Assembly: GCF_013408535.1 (NCBI RefSeq)
Contig: NZ_JACBZA010000001.1
Coordinates: 5,912,850-5,976,849, forward strand
DNA length: 64,000 bases
From: Actinopolymorpha cephalotaxi
Lineage (GTDB): Bacteria; Actinomycetota; Actinomycetes; Propionibacteriales; Actinopolymorphaceae
Reading direction: 5' to 3'
The position numbers were made by a program, and so were the translations under genes. The notes under the pieces were generated by a model that did not search any database, had not been told where the DNA came from, and was given only the letters and a program-made list of their open reading frames with translations. Shown piece after piece: positions 32,470 to 63,475 of the stretch (positions are counted from its first letter, which is position 1; each line of letters opens with the position of its first letter).

Positions 32470-33482
32470 CCGGCTACCTGCTGCGCCGGCTGGTGGGCGC
32501 CCTGGTGGTGCTGCTCGTGCTGTCGGCCGTCGTCTACACGATCTTCTACCTCACGCCGGGCAACCCGGCGCTGCTGGCCTGCGGCAAGGGATGTACGCCG
32601 GAGCACCTGAAGGTCGTCGAGGCCCAGATGGGCATCGACCAGCCGGTCTGGGTGCAGTACTGGCACTTCCTGCAGGGCATGCTGACGGGCCGCGACTTCA
32701 GCGCCGGGCCCACCGTCGACCACTGCCCGGCGCCCTGCCTGGGCTACTCGTTCCAGACCGACGAGCCGGTGCTGGCGCTGCTGCTGGACCGGCTGCCGGT
32801 GACGCTGTCGCTCACCCTCGGCTCGCTGGTGATCTGGCTGGTCGTCGGCGTCGCCGCCGGGGTGGTGTCCGCGCTGCGCCGGGGCCGCACCGCCGACCGG
32901 CTGGTGACGGTGACCACGCTCGCCGGGATGTCCGCGCCGACGTTCCTGGTCGGCATCCTGCTGCTGATGCTGCTGTGCGCCTACCTGCGCTGGCTGCCGT
33001 TCCCGTCGTACGTCCCACTGCACGAGGACCCCGCTGCCTGGGCGACCAACCTGGTGCTGCCGTGGGTGACGCTGGCGATCGTGCAGGCCGCGGTCTACAC
33101 CCGGATCACCCGCACCGCGATCCTGGAGACGCTGGCCGAGGACCACATCCGCACCGGCCGGGCGTACGGCCTGACCGAACGCTCGATCGTCGGCCGGCAC
33201 GCCCTGCGCAGTGCGCTCACCCCGCTGGTGACGCTGGTCGCGCTCGACCTGGGCGCCCTGCTCGGCGGCGCGGCGATCACCGAGAGCGTGTTCGGGCTGC
33301 CCGGGCTCGGCCAGCTGCTGGTCGACTCGGTGCGGGTCGTCGACCTGCCGGTGGTGGTGGGGCTGACGCTGCTGTCCGGCTTCTTCATCGTGCTGGCCAA
33401 CGCGGTCGCCGACCTGTTGTACGCGGTGGCCGACCCGCGGGTCAGCCTGGGCGAGGACCGGCTGGGCCGGAGGGGCGCATGA
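32466..33482 (+). CDS. DppB/OppB-type ABC permease
   Basis: A 338-residue permease with the B-type start YLLRRLVGALVVLLVLSAVV, YTIFYLTPGNPALL, an extracellular loop containing two cysteine pairs (CGKGC and CPAPC), and the coupling motif HIRTGRAYGLTERSIVGRHA. GTG at 32466 overlaps the stop of the C subunit (GTGA) and its own stop overlaps the ATPase start. The extra cysteines in the first loop suggest disulfides outside the membrane. Confidence 0.92.
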   Translation: MTGYLLRRLVGALVVLLVLSAVVYTIFYLTPGNPALLACGKGCTPEHLKVVEAQMGIDQPVWVQYWHFLQGMLTGRDFSAGPTVDHCPAPCLGYSFQTDEPVLALLLDRLPVTLSLTLGSLVIWLVVGVAAGVVSALRRGRTADRLVTVTTLAGMSAPTFLVGILLLMLLCAYLRWLPFPSYVPLHEDPAAWATNLVLPWVTLAIVQAAVYTRITRTAILETLAEDHIRTGRAYGLTERSIVGRHALRSALTPLVTLVALDLGALLGGAAITESVFGLPGLGQLLVDSVRVVDLPVVVGLTLLSGFFIVLANAVADLLYAVADPRVSLGEDRLGRRGA

Positions 33483-35251
33483 CCGACAACCTCGTTCAGC
33501 CGGTGGACAACCGCGTCCGGCCGGTGGTGTCCGTACGCGACCTGCGGATCGCGTTCCCGGGTGCCGCCGCTTCCGGTGCTCCGCCTGCCGTCGACGGGCT
33601 GTCGTTCGACCTGCCGCCCGGCGGCGGGCTCGGCCTGGTCGGCGAGTCCGGCTCGGGCAAGACCGTGACCGCGCTGACCCTGCTCGGGCTGCACCGGGGC
33701 ACCGACGCGCGGGTGTCCGGCGAGGTCGAGGTCGCCGGGGTTCCGGTGCTCACCGCGCCGGACGAGCAGGTACGCCGGATGCGGGGCGCGGAGGTCGCGA
33801 TGATCTTCCAGGACCCGCTGTCGGCGTTCGACCCGTACTACCGCGTCGGCGACCAGATCGGCGAGGTCTACCGGCTGCACACCGGCGCCGGCCGCCGGGC
33901 CGCCCGCGAACGCGCGGTCGAGGTGCTCGACCGGGTGCACATCCCCGACCCGCACCGGCGCGTCGACGCGTACCCCCACGAGCTCTCCGGCGGCATGCGG
34001 CAACGCGCGCTGATCGCGATGGCGCTGGCCTGCGAGCCGCGGGTGCTGGTCGCCGACGAACCCACCACCGCGCTAGACGTCACCGTCCAGGCGCAGATCC
34101 TCGACCTGCTCGCCGAACTCCGGGCCGACACCGGGATGGCGCTGATTCTGGTGACGCACGACCTCGGCGTGGTGGCCGGCAGCGTCGACGACGTGCTGGT
34201 GATGAGCGCTGGTCGGGAGGTCGAACGCGGGCCGACCGCACAGGTGCTGGGCGCGCCCTCCGCGGCGTACACCCGCGCGCTGCTGGCGGCCGTGCCCCGG
34301 GTGGACGTGGCGCCCGACCGTACCCGGAGCGAACCCACGGCGGCCGAGGACGAACGCGACCGCGCCGAGGACTCCGACTCCGGCTCCGGCTCTGGCTCCG
34401 AGGACGTGGTGATGACGCTGCGCGGCGTACGCCGCGACTTCCCCGGTCGGCGCGGCCGGGCCGGGCGGCGGGAGGTCGTGCACGCCGTCGCCGGCGTCGA
34501 CCTGGACCTGCGCCGCGGCGAGGTGCTCGGCGTGGTCGGGGAGAGCGGCAGCGGGAAGACGACGCTGGCCCGGATGATGGTCGGCCTGTTGCGGCCCTCC
34601 GCCGGTGACGTGCGGCTGGGCGGCACCGACCTGGCGAGGCTGTCCGGCCGGCGGCTGCGGGAGCGGCGCCGCGAGGTGGCGATGGTGTTCCAGGACCCGG
34701 CGTCCTCGCTCAACCCCCGGCGTACGGTCGGCGACAGCATCGCCGAGCCGCTGCGGGTCCGGGGCGTCGGGCGGGCGGAGATCGGCACGACGGTCGCGGA
34801 CCTGCTCGCCCGGGTGGGCCTGGACCCGCACCGCGCCGACGACTACCCGCATGAGTTCTCCGGCGGTCAGCGACAGCGGATCGGGATCGCCCGGGCACTC
34901 GCCGGTCGTCCGTCGGTACTGGTCTGCGACGAGCCGGTGTCCGCGCTGGACGTCACGACACAGGCGCAGGTGCTGGAGCTGATCGACGAGCTACGGGCGG
35001 AATACGGCTTCGCGGTGGTGTTCGTCAGCCACGACCTCGCCGTCGTCCGCCAGGTCAGCGACCGGGTGGCGGTGATGCGCCGGGGCGAGGTGGTCGAGCT
35101 CGCCGACGCCGAGGTGCTGTACGAGGACCCGCGGCACGAGTACACCCGCGCGTTGCTGGCCGCCGTACCCGTCCTGGATCCCGAGCTCGCCCGCGTCCGC
35201 CGCGCCGAGCGCCGCCAGCTCGCCGGGACCACTCCGCTGCCCGAGGCGTGA
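33479..35251 (+). CDS. fused DppD-DppF ABC ATPase
   Basis: Two complete nucleotide-binding domains lie in one 590-residue chain. First domain: Walker A GESGSGKT, then HELSGGMRQRALIAMALACE and LVADEPTTALDVTVQAQ. Second domain: GESGSGKTTLARMMVGLLRP, HEFSGGQRQRIGIARALAGR and VCDEPVSALDVTTQAQVLEL. The linker (about residues 280-305) is acidic and built from GACTCCGGCTCC-like repeats (SDSGSGSGSE). ATG at 33479 overlaps the permease stop, with GGAGGGGC upstream. It energises the importer from the cytosolic face. Fused D-F proteins are known in actinobacteria. Confidence 0.93.
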   Translation: MTDNLVQPVDNRVRPVVSVRDLRIAFPGAAASGAPPAVDGLSFDLPPGGGLGLVGESGSGKTVTALTLLGLHRGTDARVSGEVEVAGVPVLTAPDEQVRRMRGAEVAMIFQDPLSAFDPYYRVGDQIGEVYRLHTGAGRRAARERAVEVLDRVHIPDPHRRVDAYPHELSGGMRQRALIAMALACEPRVLVADEPTTALDVTVQAQILDLLAELRADTGMALILVTHDLGVVAGSVDDVLVMSAGREVERGPTAQVLGAPSAAYTRALLAAVPRVDVAPDRTRSEPTAAEDERDRAEDSDSGSGSGSEDVVMTLRGVRRDFPGRRGRAGRREVVHAVAGVDLDLRRGEVLGVVGESGSGKTTLARMMVGLLRPSAGDVRLGGTDLARLSGRRLRERRREVAMVFQDPASSLNPRRTVGDSIAEPLRVRGVGRAEIGTTVADLLARVGLDPHRADDYPHEFSGGQRQRIGIARALAGRPSVLVCDEPVSALDVTTQAQVLELIDELRAEYGFAVVFVSHDLAVVRQVSDRVAVMRRGEVVELADAEVLYEDPRHEYTRALLAAVPVLDPELARVRRAERRQLAGTTPLPEA

Positions 35252-35275: not shown

Positions 35276-35574
35276 ATTCTTCCGCGGAAGAATTCGTGCC
35301 TGCGGCGAAGAAGCCGGTCTGCCAACCCGAAGCGTGAAACCAGCGGGTGGCCCTGACCCTCTCGGGTCTTCACGCTCTGACCCGACCGGCCGGCCCAGGA
35401 CCGAAGCGTGAAGAGTACGGGTGGCCCTGACCACCTCGAGTTTTCTCACTGTCGGACGCTGCCGGCCGGCCTCGCCCGCGGCGACGCGGGCGTTGATCGC
35501 GTCACCTGCGGACGCGGAGCGCCGGACCGGACCGAGCACGCACAGGCCCGAGTCGATTCTTCCGCGGAAGAATC
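35276..35574. repeat. composite intergenic element A: palindromes flanking two 74-bp-spaced dyad units
   Basis: The gap between the convergent ATPase and VirB4-like genes is filled by an ordered structure. A perfect 18-bp palindrome ATTCTTCCGCGGAAGAAT (35276-35293) begins it. Two units starting CCGAAGCGTGAA at 35327 and 35401 follow, each continuing after five bases with CGGGTGGCCCTGACC. The perfect 20-bp palindrome GATTCTTCCGCGGAAGAATC (35555-35574) ends it. Each unit is itself an imperfect dyad of about 50-55 bp (AGCGTGAA at 35331 faces TTCACGCT at 35369). A second element with the same parts lies at 62494-62778. Read by orientation of the TCAGGGCCACC core, this copy is on the minus strand. 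Confidence 0.75.
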
Positions 35575-35606: not shown

Positions 35607-38597
35607 CTAGGAGTCGGCCCGGCTGAGGTCGGTGAGGTACTCCTCGTCCTCGGTAGCGTCGTCGTCGCGCGCGCCGACCACGAGCCGGGTCGACGCGAAG
35701 CCGGCCTCGTCCACCAGCACCGACGCCTCGTCCACCCAGCGCCACTCGTCCACGTCGGGCGAGGGGTCGATCGCCTTGAACCGCGCCTCCAGGTGCGGGT
35801 TGGACTGGATCGCCGCGGCGAACTCGAAGAACGCCCGGTCCACCTCGACGCTGGCCAGCTCCGCGTCCACGTCGCGCATCACGCACTCGCCGTCCCGCAG
35901 CGACTTCAGCGTCTCGATCATCGACCGCTCCGCCGGCGCTCGGTTCAGCAGCGGCAGCGTCTGCGCCGCGTCGGCGTCGGAGTGGTGCCGGAACGCGAAC
36001 ACGGTGTGGATCTGGTTCGTCCCCGCGGCCTTGGCGTCCAGGTCCTCGGACTCGATCCGGGCCAGGTCGCCCGCCTGCTGGGTGATGAGCACGATCCCGA
36101 TGTTGAAGGCGCGGCCCTGCTTGAGCACGAAGCTGATCAGGTCGCGGCCCTCACCGGTGCTCGCCACGCTGTACGCCTCGTCCACGAACAGCAGCTGCGG
36201 CCGCCAGCCCTTGACCGGGTGGCGTTCGGTGGTCTCCTCCAGCATCTGGAAGCCGAGCCGGGTGACGAGGTAGATGATGCCGCGGGCGATGTTGGCCGAG
36301 GAGCTGTTGCCGTGCGCCCGGGGCAGTCCGCGCAGGGTGATGATCGTGCGCCGCTTGCCGCTGTCGTCGACCACGGCGCTGGCCTCGCGGGCGAACGCGA
36401 CCCGGGCGTAGGGGTTCTTGCGCAGGTCCTCCAGCACCGCCGCCGCGAACCGCAGGTCGCGCACCTCGGTGTCGGCGACGCCCGCGTCCTTCACCCGGTC
36501 GAACTCGTCGACGACCAGCTGCAGGACGTTCCACGTGGTCGGGCGGGGAACCGCGCGCTCGACCTCGGACCGGGCGGCGCCCGGGTGGGCGGCGCGGTAG
36601 GCGGCCACCTCCCGGTCGAACTCGTTGACCGTACGCGAGAACGCCTCCACGACGTACCCGCTGATCCGGCTCCACGCGACCTCGCCCAGGAAGATCTCCA
36701 GCATCGCCTGGGCGTGCATCCGGCCCTCGGTGACCGTCGACGCGGTGAGCAGCGGGTCGAGGTTGCCGGCCCGGCCGCGCAGTGGGTCGATGATCTCGGT
36801 CTCCCGCCAGTACTCCTCGTTGATCGGCTGGAACGGGCACCCCTGCGTGCCCAGGCAGCCCTCACCCGCGTGCCGCATGAACTCCGGGTCGAGCACCTGG
36901 GAGCCGAACGCCAGGAAGTACGCCGTCCGGGCCGCGTCGATCTTCGGGTCGATGAACACGCACCGGACGCCGGCCTCGGACTCGTAGTGGAAGACCTTCA
37001 GCGCCAGTGTGGTCTTGCCGCCGCCGGACGCGCCGACCAGTACGACCCCGGCGCCGTTCTCCCGCGCGATCGCGGAGTGGGCGGAGTAGTGCACGGGGTT
37101 GTGGCCGTCGCGGGTACGCCCGACCAGCATCCCCTCCCAGCCCTTGGCGATCCCGTCCCGGCCGACGACCGCGCGGTCGCCGACGTGGGTGGCGGTGGTG
37201 AGCAGCGCGACGCCCAACTGGTCCAGCTCCTGCAGCCGACGGAACGGCGCGATCCGGCCCACCGGCGAGCGGTCGCCGTCGCCGGGCAGCATGTTGTAGA
37301 GCAGGCGGTACTGCAGCCGCTTGGGCCGCAGCACCGTCGCGTCCAGCGTCTTGGCGAACAGCCGCTCGATCCGCTTGCGGCGGTTCTCCAGCTCCTCCGG
37401 CGTGGACGCGGCGATGGTGAGCAGCAGCTGGGACTCCATGCCGGGGAACGGCCGGCTGTCCTGCTCGTCGACGAGGTGGTTGGCGCGTTCGACCTGTTCC
37501 ACCAGCAGGGAGTCGATCCGGGCGCTGGCGCGGTCCATGTCGCGCGCCTCGTCCTCGAGGTTGTCGCGGATCTTCTTGCCGCGGTCGCGGAACTCCTCCG
37601 GCGGCAGCAGCACGCCGCGCCAGGACACCACCACCGGGAAGTCCAGCCGCTTGAGCGTCCGCCCCCACGCGCGGTTCTTCGCGAACCGGATCGCGTCCGG
37701 CCAGCCGGTGGCGACCAGGGTGCTGAGGTAGGTCTTGCGGTCCTCGCCGGTGTCGTCGTCGATGACGCTCACCTCGAGCCGGCTCTTGTGGTTGGGTGCC
37801 CGGAAGTCGGCGGCCAGCTCGAACTCGTGCGCGCCCCACGGCCGGCGGTCGATCACGCCGTCCTCGGGAATCGGCAGGTGCCCGAACAGGCAGGTGCGGA
37901 CGATGCGCACCAGGTCGCGGCGCATCAGCGGCTGGGTGGCCACCCCGGCGTCGACCGCGACGGCGTACACCTCGTCGGCGCGTTCGTGCCACTCGGCGAC
38001 GACGTTCGGGTCGAAGTACTCGTCGTGCACGCCGGTGGCCTGGTCGGCGATCGCGGTCACCGCGGCCGAGGCCGAGCCGCGGCCGTCGCCGAGCTGGCCG
38101 ATCCGCATCAAGAAGACGACGTCGTACTGCGAACCCAGCCGGTCGTTCGACGTCGCCCGGGCCGCCTCGCGACGGATCAGCTTGCGGTAGTTGTCGGTGG
38201 GCCGCCAGGAGCGTTCGACCAGGTCCAGCGCCCAACCGGTGAGGTCGGGGCGGCGCGGGACCAGCATCACCTGGAACTGCGGGCGGTGGAACTCACGGCC
38301 GAGCTGGTGCATCAGGTTGGGCAGCTTCAGCGCCTCGGGTACGAGCTCGTCGCTGGAGATGTGCTCGTCGGTGGTGGTGTCGACGAAGAACCCCGTCCAG
38401 ACCGAGCGGCCCCAGACGAAGATGACGTCGTCGCCGTAGCGGTACGGAAGGCGTTCCCGCTCCGCGCGCGGCTCCTTCGGCTTCTTCCGGGCCGCGTCCT
38501 CGTCACCGCCGCCGAGGTTGAACACGAAGATCGCGACCGCGCCGAGACCGACGACGCCGAGCGCGAGGAGCGGAAGAAGGTAGTAGAGCGGATTCAT
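35607..38597 (-). CDS. VirB4-like type IV secretion ATPase
   Basis: A 996-residue membrane-associated ATPase. It has one N-terminal helix (LYYLLPLLALGVVGLGAVAI), a long VirB4/TraC-like N-terminal domain, Walker A GASGGGKTT (about residues 521-529), FIDPKIDAARTAYFLAFGSQ after it, and Walker B LLFVDEAYSV (about 800). An ITQQAGDLARIESEDLDAKA stretch follows, matching the Q-rich sensor of the HerA/VirB4 family. The length is close to that of Gram-positive TcpF/VirB4 proteins plus the membrane anchor. ATG at 38597, 12 bp after the PrgI-like stop. It is the motor and hallmark of the secretion-like locus. No VirD4-type coupling ATPase is in the window. Confidence 0.82.
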   Translation of the reverse strand: MNPLYYLLPLLALGVVGLGAVAIFVFNLGGGDEDAARKKPKEPRAERERLPYRYGDDVIFVWGRSVWTGFFVDTTTDEHISSDELVPEALKLPNLMHQLGREFHRPQFQVMLVPRRPDLTGWALDLVERSWRPTDNYRKLIRREAARATSNDRLGSQYDVVFLMRIGQLGDGRGSASAAVTAIADQATGVHDEYFDPNVVAEWHERADEVYAVAVDAGVATQPLMRRDLVRIVRTCLFGHLPIPEDGVIDRRPWGAHEFELAADFRAPNHKSRLEVSVIDDDTGEDRKTYLSTLVATGWPDAIRFAKNRAWGRTLKRLDFPVVVSWRGVLLPPEEFRDRGKKIRDNLEDEARDMDRASARIDSLLVEQVERANHLVDEQDSRPFPGMESQLLLTIAASTPEELENRRKRIERLFAKTLDATVLRPKRLQYRLLYNMLPGDGDRSPVGRIAPFRRLQELDQLGVALLTTATHVGDRAVVGRDGIAKGWEGMLVGRTRDGHNPVHYSAHSAIARENGAGVVLVGASGGGKTTLALKVFHYESEAGVRCVFIDPKIDAARTAYFLAFGSQVLDPEFMRHAGEGCLGTQGCPFQPINEEYWRETEIIDPLRGRAGNLDPLLTASTVTEGRMHAQAMLEIFLGEVAWSRISGYVVEAFSRTVNEFDREVAAYRAAHPGAARSEVERAVPRPTTWNVLQLVVDEFDRVKDAGVADTEVRDLRFAAAVLEDLRKNPYARVAFAREASAVVDDSGKRRTIITLRGLPRAHGNSSSANIARGIIYLVTRLGFQMLEETTERHPVKGWRPQLLFVDEAYSVASTGEGRDLISFVLKQGRAFNIGIVLITQQAGDLARIESEDLDAKAAGTNQIHTVFAFRHHSDADAAQTLPLLNRAPAERSMIETLKSLRDGECVMRDVDAELASVEVDRAFFEFAAAIQSNPHLEARFKAIDPSPDVDEWRWVDEASVLVDEAGFASTRLVVGARDDDATEDEEYLTDLSRADS

Positions 38598-59414: not shown

Positions 59415-59586
59415 GGTCACGAGTGCCAGCAGGAGACTCGTCCACCACGGCGCACGGCACGATCCGCGCCGGTCGAGGTGGGCGGGACTCGCCAGCCCCG
59501 GCTTGCTGGCCGGCAACCCTCCTCCGCGGTGGGGTGCCCCGGGTGAGGACCAGGTCGCGCCGACCGGTGCGGCAAGCGCGGGACCC
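59415..59586 (+). promoter_or_regulatory. SAM-IV riboswitch
   Basis: The region carries the characteristic blocks of the actinobacterial SAM-IV aptamer in order: GGTCACGAGTGCCAGC, then after an enlarged hairpin GCCCCGGCTTGCTGGCCGGC with AACCCTCC, GCGGTGGGGTGCCCCGGGTG with AGGACC, and the 3' pseudoknot block GCGGCAAGCGCGGGACC. Compared with the common form, the peripheral arm between 59431 and 59485 is longer. It lies 38 bp upstream of the aminotransferase start, so S-adenosylmethionine probably lowers expression of the cysteine operon. Identification is from memory of the consensus; a covariance search would settle it. Confidence 0.85.
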
Positions 59587-61355: not shown

Positions 61356-61967
61356 ATGTCCGCGACATCCCTGACCTTCAGCGACACCTCCGTCCCCTTC
61401 CCCGCCGGACACCAGGCGGGCCGGTTCACCGTCGACGTACCCAGCGTCGCCTCCGCCGCCGCGCTGGTACGCCGGGTCGCCGCCGAGCCGCGACTGTGGC
61501 AGGACCGGCTACGTTTCGGCCACGGCGGCGAACGCTGGTACGCCCGCCTCGACGTCGACCCCGACCACGAGGTGTGGCTGATCGCCTGGCTGCCCGGACA
61601 GGGCACCGGCCTGCACGACCACGGCGAGGCACTCGGCGCGTTCACGGTGGTGCGGGGTGCGCTGACCGAGACCACCGTCACTCCGGCCGGCCCCGACGCG
61701 GCCGACGCGGCCGACGCGGCCGACGGCGCCCTGCCCGGTGGCCGGATCACCCCGGGCACCGTCGTACGCCCTGCTCGCCGGCACTTCGGCGCGGGTCAGG
61801 TCCGCGGCTTCGGGTACGAACACGTCCATGACGTCGCCAACTCCGGCGACGTGCCCGCCGTCAGCGTCCACGCGTACGCGCCCGAACTCACCGCCATGAC
61901 GAGGTACGCCGTGGTGGACCGGCGGCTGACGGTGCTGTCCTCCGAACGCGTAGGAGTCGACTGGTGA
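61356..61967 (+). CDS. cysteine dioxygenase
   Basis: A 203-residue cupin of the type I cysteine dioxygenase family, which oxidises cysteine to cysteine sulfinate with iron and oxygen. The metal histidines are His87 and His89 (GTGLHDHGEALGAF) and one in EHVHDVAN (probably His158). A tandem 9-bp repeat (61695-61721) inserts ADAADAADAAD into a surface loop. ATG at 61356 with GGAGA upstream. Together with the desulfurase-like enzyme and rhodanese it removes excess cysteine sulfur. Confidence 0.9.
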   Translation: MSATSLTFSDTSVPFPAGHQAGRFTVDVPSVASAAALVRRVAAEPRLWQDRLRFGHGGERWYARLDVDPDHEVWLIAWLPGQGTGLHDHGEALGAFTVVRGALTETTVTPAGPDAADAADAADGALPGGRITPGTVVRPARRHFGAGQVRGFGYEHVHDVANSGDVPAVSVHAYAPELTAMTRYAVVDRRLTVLSSERVGVDW

Positions 61968-62464
61968 CCACCCCCGTGAGGCCAACGTCCGAGCACCCCT
62001 CGCCGGAGCACCCCACGCCCGAACGGGCCGCGTCCGTACGCCGCTCCACGCCCGAACGCGGCACGCCCGAACGTCGCACGATCGACGACGTGCTCGCGCA
62101 GGCGCGCGCCCGGCTGAACCGCCTCAGCCCGGAGCAGGCGTACGACCGGGTGCGGGCCGGCGCGGTGCTGGTCGACATCCGGCCCAGCGAGCAGCGGGCC
62201 CGGGAAGGTCAGGTCGAGGGTGCGGTCCCGGGCGCGCTGGTGGTCGAACGCAACGTCCTGGAATGGCGGTTCGACCCGGCCGGCGACGCTCGGCTGCCGG
62301 AGGCGACGGGGTACGACGTGGAGGTCCTCGTCCTGTGCTCGGAGGGCTACACCTCCAGCCTCGCGGCGGCCGCGCTGCAGGACCTCGGCCTGCACCGCGC
62401 CACCGACGTGGACGGCGGCTTCGTGGCCTGGGCCGCGGCCGGCCTGCCCACCCGCACCGGCTGA
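61964..62464 (+). CDS. rhodanese-like sulfurtransferase
   Basis: A 166-residue single-domain rhodanese. The N-terminal 40 residues are Pro/Glu/Arg-rich. The domain follows: AYDRVRAGAVLVDIRPSEQR, then the catalytic loop CSEGYTS (Cys125) in VEVLVLCSEGYTSSLAAAAL, and ATDVDGGFVAWAAAGLP. GTG at 61964 overlaps the dioxygenase stop (GTGA). Rhodanese genes commonly accompany cysteine dioxygenase in actinobacteria, handling persulfide or thiosulfate. It ends the operon; element B follows 30 bp later. Confidence 0.9.
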   Translation: MTTPVRPTSEHPSPEHPTPERAASVRRSTPERGTPERRTIDDVLAQARARLNRLSPEQAYDRVRAGAVLVDIRPSEQRAREGQVEGAVPGALVVERNVLEWRFDPAGDARLPEATGYDVEVLVLCSEGYTSSLAAAALQDLGLHRATDVDGGFVAWAAAGLPTRTG

Positions 62465-62493: not shown

Positions 62494-62778
62494 GATTCTT
62501 CCGCGGAAGAATCCGCGGCGCTCGGGCCCGCCGGTCCTGACCTGGTGCGGGCGCGCCGATGTGGCCGGCCGAAGCGTGAAGACGAACGGGTGTCAGGGCC
62601 ACCGCGAGGTTTCGCACTACGGTCGCCGGACCGTCGTGCCCGCCGAAGCGTGAAAACCCGCCGCGGTCGTAGCCACCTGCCGTCTCCCCACTTCCGTCCG
62701 GCCGGCCTGGCGGCTGTTCTCGCTTGAGCTGTGGGCCGACGTTCGCGGTCGGGGCCGGGATTCTTCCGCGGAAGAATC
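62494..62778. repeat. composite intergenic element B: palindromes flanking two 74-bp-spaced dyad units
   Basis: Perfect 20-bp palindromes GATTCTTCCGCGGAAGAATC at 62494-62513 and 62759-62778 bracket two units starting CCGAAGCGTGAA at 62569 and 62643, again exactly 74 bp apart as in element A. The first unit continues into CAGGGCCACC and closes with GGTTTCGCACTACGG, the imperfect complement of its start. The element fills the gap between the convergent rhodanese and methyltransferase genes and is oriented on the plus strand relative to its core. CTCGGGCC lies just inside the left palindrome and also flanks the right palindrome of element A. Confidence 0.75.
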
Positions 62779-62809
62779 CGACGAGGCCGGCAGGTTCTTG
62801 GGCCGCGGA

Positions 62810-63475
62810 TCAGCTCCGCCGCGCCCGGAACAGGCTGTGCCCGCTGTCTCCTTCGGGCACGAACTCCTCTCCGGTGATAGTGAGCCCCGCCCGCGTCAGC
62901 CATCCGCGGTAGGTCGCGGCGTCGGCGTGGCTCCACCACATCGGCGCGCCGAGCCAGTTCTCCTCCGAGCCCGTCCAGGCGGTGTGGCCGGCCGTGGCGA
63001 GGAGCCGGCCGCCGGGCCGCAGCCAGGACGCGATCCGGGCCAGCAGCGCCGGCTGCTCGTCCAGTGGGACGTGGATGAGGGCGTACAGGCAGACGACCGC
63101 GTCGAAGGACCCGGCCGGGAACTCCACCGCCGTGGCGTCGGCCCGCAGGAACGTCGCGCCGGGTACGAGGGCGCGCGCACGTGCGATCTGGACGTCGCTG
63201 AGGTCGACGCCGGTGACCGCGTACCCCGCCTCGTGCAGCGCCCGGGCCACCGGCACCCCACACCCGCACCCCAGGTCGAGCACCGCGCCACCAGCGGGAA
63301 CGCGGGCGGTCAGCTCGTCGATCCACCGCGCGTACCGCGGGTCGTCACCGTCGTCACCGTCGTCACCGTCACCGCGGTAGGCGTACGAGATCGCGTCGTA
63401 TCCCCGGCGGACGATCTGTTTCGGATCGGTCTCCGGATCGGTCTCCGGACCAGGTTCCGGGTCTTGGCCTGCCAC
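62810..63475 (-). CDS. class I SAM-dependent methyltransferase
   Basis: A 221-residue methyltransferase with the Rossmann motif I (AVLDLGCGCGVPVARALHEA), motif II (YAVTGVDLSDVQIARARAL), FDAVVCLYALIHVPLDEQPA and LRPGGRLLATAGHTAWTG. The last part (WWSHADAATYRGWLTRAGLT) resembles small-molecule or quinone-type methylases. In-frame repeats encode PETDPETDP near the start and DGDDGDDGDD in a loop. Substrate unknown. It converges on the cysteine operon across element B. Confidence 0.9.
   Translation of the reverse strand: MAGQDPEPGPETDPETDPKQIVRRGYDAISYAYRGDGDDGDDGDDPRYARWIDELTARVPAGGAVLDLGCGCGVPVARALHEAGYAVTGVDLSDVQIARARALVPGATFLRADATAVEFPAGSFDAVVCLYALIHVPLDEQPALLARIASWLRPGGRLLATAGHTAWTGSEENWLGAPMWWSHADAATYRGWLTRAGLTITGEEFVPEGDSGHSLFRARRS

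Follow-up and report, generated by a model that had tools for sequence, protein, structure and literature searches.

The window, a 64,000-nt stretch of the Actinopolymorpha cephalotaxi genome (G000; 6,858,585 bp in one contig), contains two copies of a composite intergenic element, each of which is located between convergent genes according to home-made gene calls and open reading frames (Table 1). A first-pass annotation had proposed that both copies share the same ordered parts, i.e., a palindrome (P), two repeated units (U) and a closing palindrome. Direct reading of the window sequence confirmed this order, and perfect palindromes of 18 or 20 bp are present in both copies. Three of the four P copies are the window's longest perfect palindromes, and the fourth, the left P of element 1, is one of its two perfect palindromes of 18 bp, with one mismatch when taken as a 20-mer. 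The second copy is 285 bp long, as annotated, whereas the first comprises 299 bases rather than 298. Similarly, each copy carries two units 74 bp apart, but the repeated unit is a 50-bp dyad and not the 12-mer initially described. In the same window, a SAM-IV riboswitch is found on the forward strand at positions 59471-59584 (67.7 bits vs a gathering score of 38).

Table 1. Features of the two window elements and related sites. Window positions are given as start..end, and sites on stretches fetched for comparison as stretch:position.
Feature	Position	Strand	Remark
Left flank gene, element 1: ABC transporter ATPase	33479..35251	+	two ABC_tran stretches
P, left copy, element 1 (ATTCTTCCGCGGAAGAAT, 18 bp)	35276..35293	.	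24 nt past left gene's stop
U unit 1, element 1 (50-bp dyad)	35329..35378	+	
U unit 2, element 1	35403..35452	+	74 bp after unit 1, orientation unchanged
P, right copy, element 1 (20 bp)	35555..35574	.	about 32 nt past right (minus-strand) gene's stop
Right flank gene, element 1: AAA-like (AAA_10) protein	35607..38597	-	
Left flank gene, element 2: rhodanese-like	61964..62464	+	
P, left copy, element 2 (20 bp)	62494..62513	.	
U unit 1, element 2	62571..62620	-	strand by loop motif
U unit 2, element 2	62645..62694	-	74 bp after unit 1; strand by loop motif, narrow margin
P, right copy, element 2 (20 bp)	62759..62778	.	22-bp palindrome with neighbours (62758-62779)
Right flank gene, element 2: methyltransferase	62810..63475	-	
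P in frame, G000	L016:2011, L034:1483		
P in frame, Geodermatophilaceae MAGs	L042:7104, L057:515		
Sister-hairpin sites	L019:1729, L022:1512, L038:1156, L106:1722, L041:3891, L087:1241, L145:1185, L146:1039		

Actinopolymorpha carries a composite intergenic repeat that combines two distinct dispersed families, P and the paired units (UU), and the two window copies are examples of it. The exact 20-bp P occurs 46 times in G000 vs 0 for the reversed pattern, which excludes chance for P; with up to three mismatches it is found at 66 places, the reversed control remaining at 0. The genome-wide search suggested in the first-pass annotation thus extends the element, with these P copies and at least 57 U units, far beyond the two window copies. 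In G000, 18 clusters contain P without U. The flanks of P covary at positions 1-3 (z 3.0, 4.2 and 5.4 in 89 contexts, congeners included), complementarity being weaker at positions 4-6, and the P copies of L005 and L010 extend on folding to stems some 20 bp long (-43 and -44 kcal/mol). The nearest gene end is a 3′ end for 41 of 57 P copies, 21 of which lie within 32 nt past the stop codon, compared with 52% for random intergenic positions of the window; with congeners included (89 contexts), 66 copies are nearest a 3′ end, 20 nearest a 5′ end, and 3 are inside genes or unassigned. These gene calls rely on a home-made codon model, which missed the frames over P at L016 and L034, both hence counted as nearest a 5′ end. 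The frequent location of P just past stop codons, together with the tendency of its flanks to be self-complementary, suggests that P most likely forms a hairpin or cruciform at the 3′ ends of genes. To the right of P in L006, a hairpin and a run of T come after a short leader-peptide-like reading frame, an arrangement that appears attenuator-like by eye.

P is also found outside the genus. In a contig collection from which G000 itself or very near genomes may be left out, exact P occurs in 18 stretches, including 12 in A. rutila, the remaining six being located on three Geodermatophilaceae MAG contigs, one actinobacterial contig and two Treponema/Spirochaetes MAG contigs. All six look coding by eye, and L042 and L057 were translated. 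In DUF222/HNH-type genes of two actinobacterial families, P is in frame within a linker, where it encodes the peptide DSSAEES (Table 1). Pfam matches of the P-bearing genes of G000 correspond to HNH (L016) and to DUF222 and HNH (L034), and the Geodermatophilaceae stretch L042 reaches 24.2 bits against DUF222, just below the cut-off of 24.4. The same peptide is encoded by L058 of the relative G003, P having one mismatch there, and extra P copies are located near both G000 genes carrying the in-frame P. The presence of P inside DUF222/HNH-type genes can be considered only as a lead.

The unit U is a degenerate 50-bp dyad of the approximate form GAAGYGTGAAGAC n4 GGTGG n6 CCACC n4 GTCTTCACRCTTC. 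In an alignment of 33 units (A1), 9 columns are invariant and 11 more are at least 90% conserved, forming four blocks (AAGYGTGAA n7 GGTGG n6 CCACC n7 TTCACRCTT), and the variable columns are 14-17 and 34-37. Since the units were first located through the arm consensus, conservation of the outer blocks is in part built in, which does not apply to the inner blocks or to the spacing; two units of A1 (L002:1550 and L038:1310) were added for sitting 74 bp from another unit and were both found later by the model search. It is because of the degeneracy of U that the string CCGAAGCGTGAA, proposed for searching the genome, retrieves only the four units of the two window sites. In the fetched stretches of G000, at least 57 units were found in 33 clusters, and a sequence-only model gives at least 119 matches among the best 150 candidates scored, most dyads being matched on both strands. 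The units form 23 called pairs, with a spacing of 74 bp in 21 and 73 bp in 2, and three extra clusters resemble pairs with small indels inside the units or in the spacer (L023, 77 apart; L039, 75; L032, 74), to which some of the 11 single units belong. Orientations agree in 11 of the 13 pairs in which both units can be called, the 10 other pairs having at least one uncallable unit. P is present within the same cluster for 24 of the 33 U clusters, at distances from U that vary among clusters.

Nearest-neighbour identity among the 23 pairs is 71-85%, implying that they do not derive from one recent burst of a single master; this divergence would be compatible with older gains, with losses in which two P copies recombined, or with a mixture of the two. 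A MITE, one of the possibilities raised by the annotation, was consequently rejected, as the pairs lack near-identity, P-U distances vary and no Y1 transposase (PF01797) match exists in G000. Three orthologous UU loci, picked because U was found in both G000 and G003, were compared: 133 of 156 block positions are identical (85%), compared with 93 of 144 other unit positions (65%) and 47 of 72 spacer positions (65%), and the spacing is unchanged, with no indels.

The genomic context of the two families was compared using the home-made gene calls. Of the 33 U clusters, 22 are flanked by convergent, 10 by co-directional and one by divergent genes, and the corresponding numbers for the 18 P-only clusters are 3, 8 and 7. 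Relative to the window, where convergence applies to 6 of 49 pairs of adjacent genes, the value for U corresponds to a binomial p of about 4e-13, without correction for gap length.

G000 and the relatives G003, G004 and G005 share about 96% mutual identity in one gene and are related in a nearly star-like manner, the P positions of G003 matching those of A. rutila NZ_JACBZH010000001. The gap corresponding to copy 1 contains one P in G005 and none in G003, G004 and G002, and the copy 2 gap contains one P and no U in each of G003, G004 and G005. The orthologous gap was recovered for 17 of the 23 UU pairs and not for the other 6. Of these 17 loci, 3 have a UU pair in a relative, 8 have P but no U in one relative or more, 1 has a single U and 5 have neither. 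Hence UU, retained at only 3 of 17 loci, is dispensable at most of them. The reverse case is provided by L052 of G003, where P-UU is found and G000 (L029) holds P only. As for P, three congeners have 27 loci with an exact copy, and for 22 of these the corresponding G000 gap contains P as well, a fraction in which five unrecovered loci count as misses, L058 and L170 depend on shorter or weaker alignments, and the G000 set, drawn from P/U loci, makes P-less G000 gaps unrecoverable. Most relative loci were fetched for holding P or U. Synteny guided the choice only for the 30 G003 stretches L212-L241, which yielded 14 clusters; there, the UU pair is retained at 0 of 9 and P (up to three mismatches) at 4 of 10. 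Many copies, the convergent bias and cassette-free gaps in relatives support the dispersed, BIME-like repeat that the first-pass annotation had envisaged.

Hairpins in RNA or single-stranded DNA are the usual interpretation of short palindromic repeats. The arms of U were examined for covariation. The A1 arms pair in 74.7% of cells vs 74.8% with shuffled columns, and all 57 G000 units in 74.8% vs 74.6% (z 0.31). In the outer arms, pairing slightly exceeds the shuffled value (z 2.1, p 0.02 for all 57 units; z 2.25-2.4 for Watson-Crick pairs in 38 oriented units), and the 46 paired units of G000 show no arm covariation (z at most 1.0). G-U cells number 53 vs 45 A-C cells in the 38 of 57 G000 units that can be oriented, the 19 uncallable units being dropped. 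Similarly, pairing in 14 units of G003 is 77.0% vs 77.9% shuffled, with no excess.

The situation differs in the distant congener G001, in which 21 copies of U were retrieved (L085, L089, L093 and L147-L164). Their arms pair in 86.3% of cells vs 83.7%, a value reached by 0 of 500 shuffles in a test where relatedness of the sequences alone can exceed shuffles. In addition, 14 cells are changed on both sides vs 4.6 after shuffling, sliding the partners lowers pairing to at most 54%, and 68 G-U cells are observed vs 5 A-C cells. In G001, U is a stranded, covarying hairpin that forms part of a longer conserved repeat; many copies sit in a repeat of about 110 nt with conserved flanks (e.g., GGCCATCTCA and TACTGAGG). 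The 12 single units of G004 and G005 are good hairpins too alike for a covariation test (93.5 vs 92.8% shuffled, p 0.16; outer arms p 0.012), and the clean contrast between hairpin and non-covarying dyad rests on G001. Nor is U uniformly non-hairpin in G000, where the single unit of L024 is a near-perfect hairpin (-45.6 kcal/mol, z -12.7) and the single units 1307969, 3169470 and 2121021 appear to be near-perfect hairpins by eye.

Within the window, the RNA folding z is -2.7 for the unit at 35329 and -1.6 for its partner, then 0.17 and 0.69 for the two copy 2 units, whose folding does not surpass that of shuffles. A bidirectional RNA terminator, also proposed in the annotation, is hence unsupported for the copy 2 units; the unit at 35329 folds well, and P could play such a role. 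Extended pairing between unit 1 and unit 2 was considered and not supported (z -3.1). No Rfam family matches either element at its gathering score, the best hit of a permissive scan of copy 1 reaching 18.6 bits vs a cut-off of 35, and five Rfam miRNA matches, all below gathering scores, were taken as chance. Plasmids searched with copy 1 and phages searched with copy 2, both in distant mode, gave no match. Literature searches including the 20-mer, whose coverage leaves out most subscription papers, returned no description in which the element could be recognised.

The nearest known kind is the REP/BIME/REPIN group, in which the element is BIME-like in layout, its assignment to the REPs being unsupported. 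BIMEs bind gyrase, IHF or DNA polymerase I. Like the BIME/REP sequences of enterobacteria and pseudomonads, P and U are dispersed palindromic units found at 3′ ends or in convergent gaps and arranged in regularly spaced composites, and the 23 U pairs at 74 or 73 bp constitute a regularly spaced palindromic composite in extragenic space. REPs are reported at 3′ ends and between convergent genes (PMC3733652), and BIMEs as binding sites of several proteins (PMC2817692). However, U lacks the GTAG/CGTC tag above background, no Y1 transposase was detected in G000, and the units are mostly direct tandems at a fixed 74 bp whose paired arms do not covary. REPINs are reported to consist of two inverted conserved half-sites (PMC3116915) at a defined spacing, some in tandem, a description that also applies to U. 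REPINs form hairpins and are accompanied by a RAYT, whereas no RAYT-type gene was found here, the paired units lack arm covariation, and unit 1 does not pair with unit 2. Membership of the REP-RAYT system was rejected on the missing tag and Y1 transposase in G000 and on the missing arm covariation of the paired units. Noc/ParB-type sites are dispersed palindromes, and P resembles them as a perfect palindrome of similar size with tens of copies per chromosome. P was nevertheless rejected as a Noc/ParB-like site, as a single ParB_N match is present in G000 (at 6.04 Mb) and P is not clearly depleted in the fifth of the chromosome farthest from parB (9 of 57 vs 11.4 expected).

Tentatively, and with slightly less than even confidence, the element is interpreted as a BIME-like composite in which P would be a hairpin-type site close to stop codons and the paired dyads a putative duplex site, bound by protein, in the gaps between converging genes. 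UU is a direct-repeat pair of 50-bp dyads, and its 74-bp spacing corresponds to about seven helical turns. As the paired arms vary independently while the blocks and the spacing persist, UU would most likely be read as double-stranded DNA, by a symmetric protein on two phased dyads. Such a protein could turn UU into a boundary between converging genes (a roadblock, a bridge or a supercoil site), P marking the 3′ ends. The putative protein-binding array suggested by the annotation is favoured for the paired units, which combine no covariation, no strand bias and a fixed spacing.

A somewhat doubtful alternative is a selfish palindrome of the REP/BIME type, in which a Y1-type or other enzyme would have dispersed U in the form of a single-strand hairpin, the G000 pairs being decaying and functionless remnants. 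The good hairpins formed by single copies in G001, G004, G005 and in part in G000 are consistent with this proposal, as are the differences in U presence between species, the placement at 3′ ends and in convergent gaps reported for REPs (PMC3733652), and the PF01797 matches of G001 (9) and G002 (7). However, no such match exists in G000, G003, G004, G005, G006 or G007, and the surroundings of 13 of the 16 matches of G001 and G002 revealed a single weak U, some 2.4 kb away from a Y1 fragment. Furthermore, neither tag exceeds background at the 57 U units (GTAG 2 vs 1.6 expected, CGTC 3 vs 8.7), the raw counts at 57 P being 0 and 4, and plain decay would have eroded the inner blocks and the 74-bp spacing as well as the variable stretches between them. 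It is improbable that P and U are both RNA hairpins, i.e., intrinsic or RNA-processing terminators ending the two converging transcripts. The frequent position of P right after stop codons, its covarying flanks, the stems of about 20 bp formed by some copies and the covarying U hairpin of G001 speak for terminators, but the paired G000 units show neither covariation nor strand bias, and two window units have no folding advantage over shuffles. A scan of copy 1 revealed one terminator-like site, within unit 2, vs 0.3 expected, and none at P; moreover, 15 of 57 P copies of G000 are nearer a 5′ end, and the gene-oriented P flanks (31 G-U vs 22 A-C) are not decisive.

P could also be a cleavage or recombination site, recognised for instance by an HNH endonuclease or a site-specific recombinase, the alternation of P-UU-P with P then resulting from exchange at P. 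Gain or loss of the cassette through such exchange is suggested by the relatives holding a single P where G000 has P-U-U-P. Three single-P sites have a right flank resembling that of the right P and not that of the left (L044, 10.5 vs 3.5; L123, 10.5 vs 4.0; L169, 16 vs 1.5), but the flanks of L171 match the left P on both sides, the right side of L122 matches the left P better, and the other five comparisons are weak, leaving a mixed picture overall. The in-frame P in the linkers of DUF222/HNH-type genes of G000 and Geodermatophilaceae MAGs points in the same direction; against it, DUF222 is common (44 matches in G000), P was seen in only two such genes, and the coincidence may stem from the linker's acidic, serine-rich peptide. 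A cleavage or recombination site is given a small probability.

Returning to the duplex-site reading of the paired dyads, a further and unlikely extension would make UU the platform of a putative actinomycete architectural protein, a palindromic hairpin repeat having turned, in one lineage, into a rigidly phased duplex site in convergent gaps and joined with a 20-bp palindromic landing site. Within one genus, U can be compared as stranded, covarying hairpins in one species and as rigidly spaced, non-covarying dyads in another. The family hence makes it possible to test both the conversion of a hairpin repeat into a chromosomal protein site and the existence of dedicated DNA boundaries at some convergent genes. 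U clusters are commoner near parB (6.04 Mb, taken as near oriC), 16 of 33 being located within 0.8 Mb (binomial p 0.0014). Finally, hairpins of 50 nt with sequences such as GAGCTGGGAAGAC..GTCTTCCCAGCTC constitute a sister family that shares the architecture of U (Table 1).
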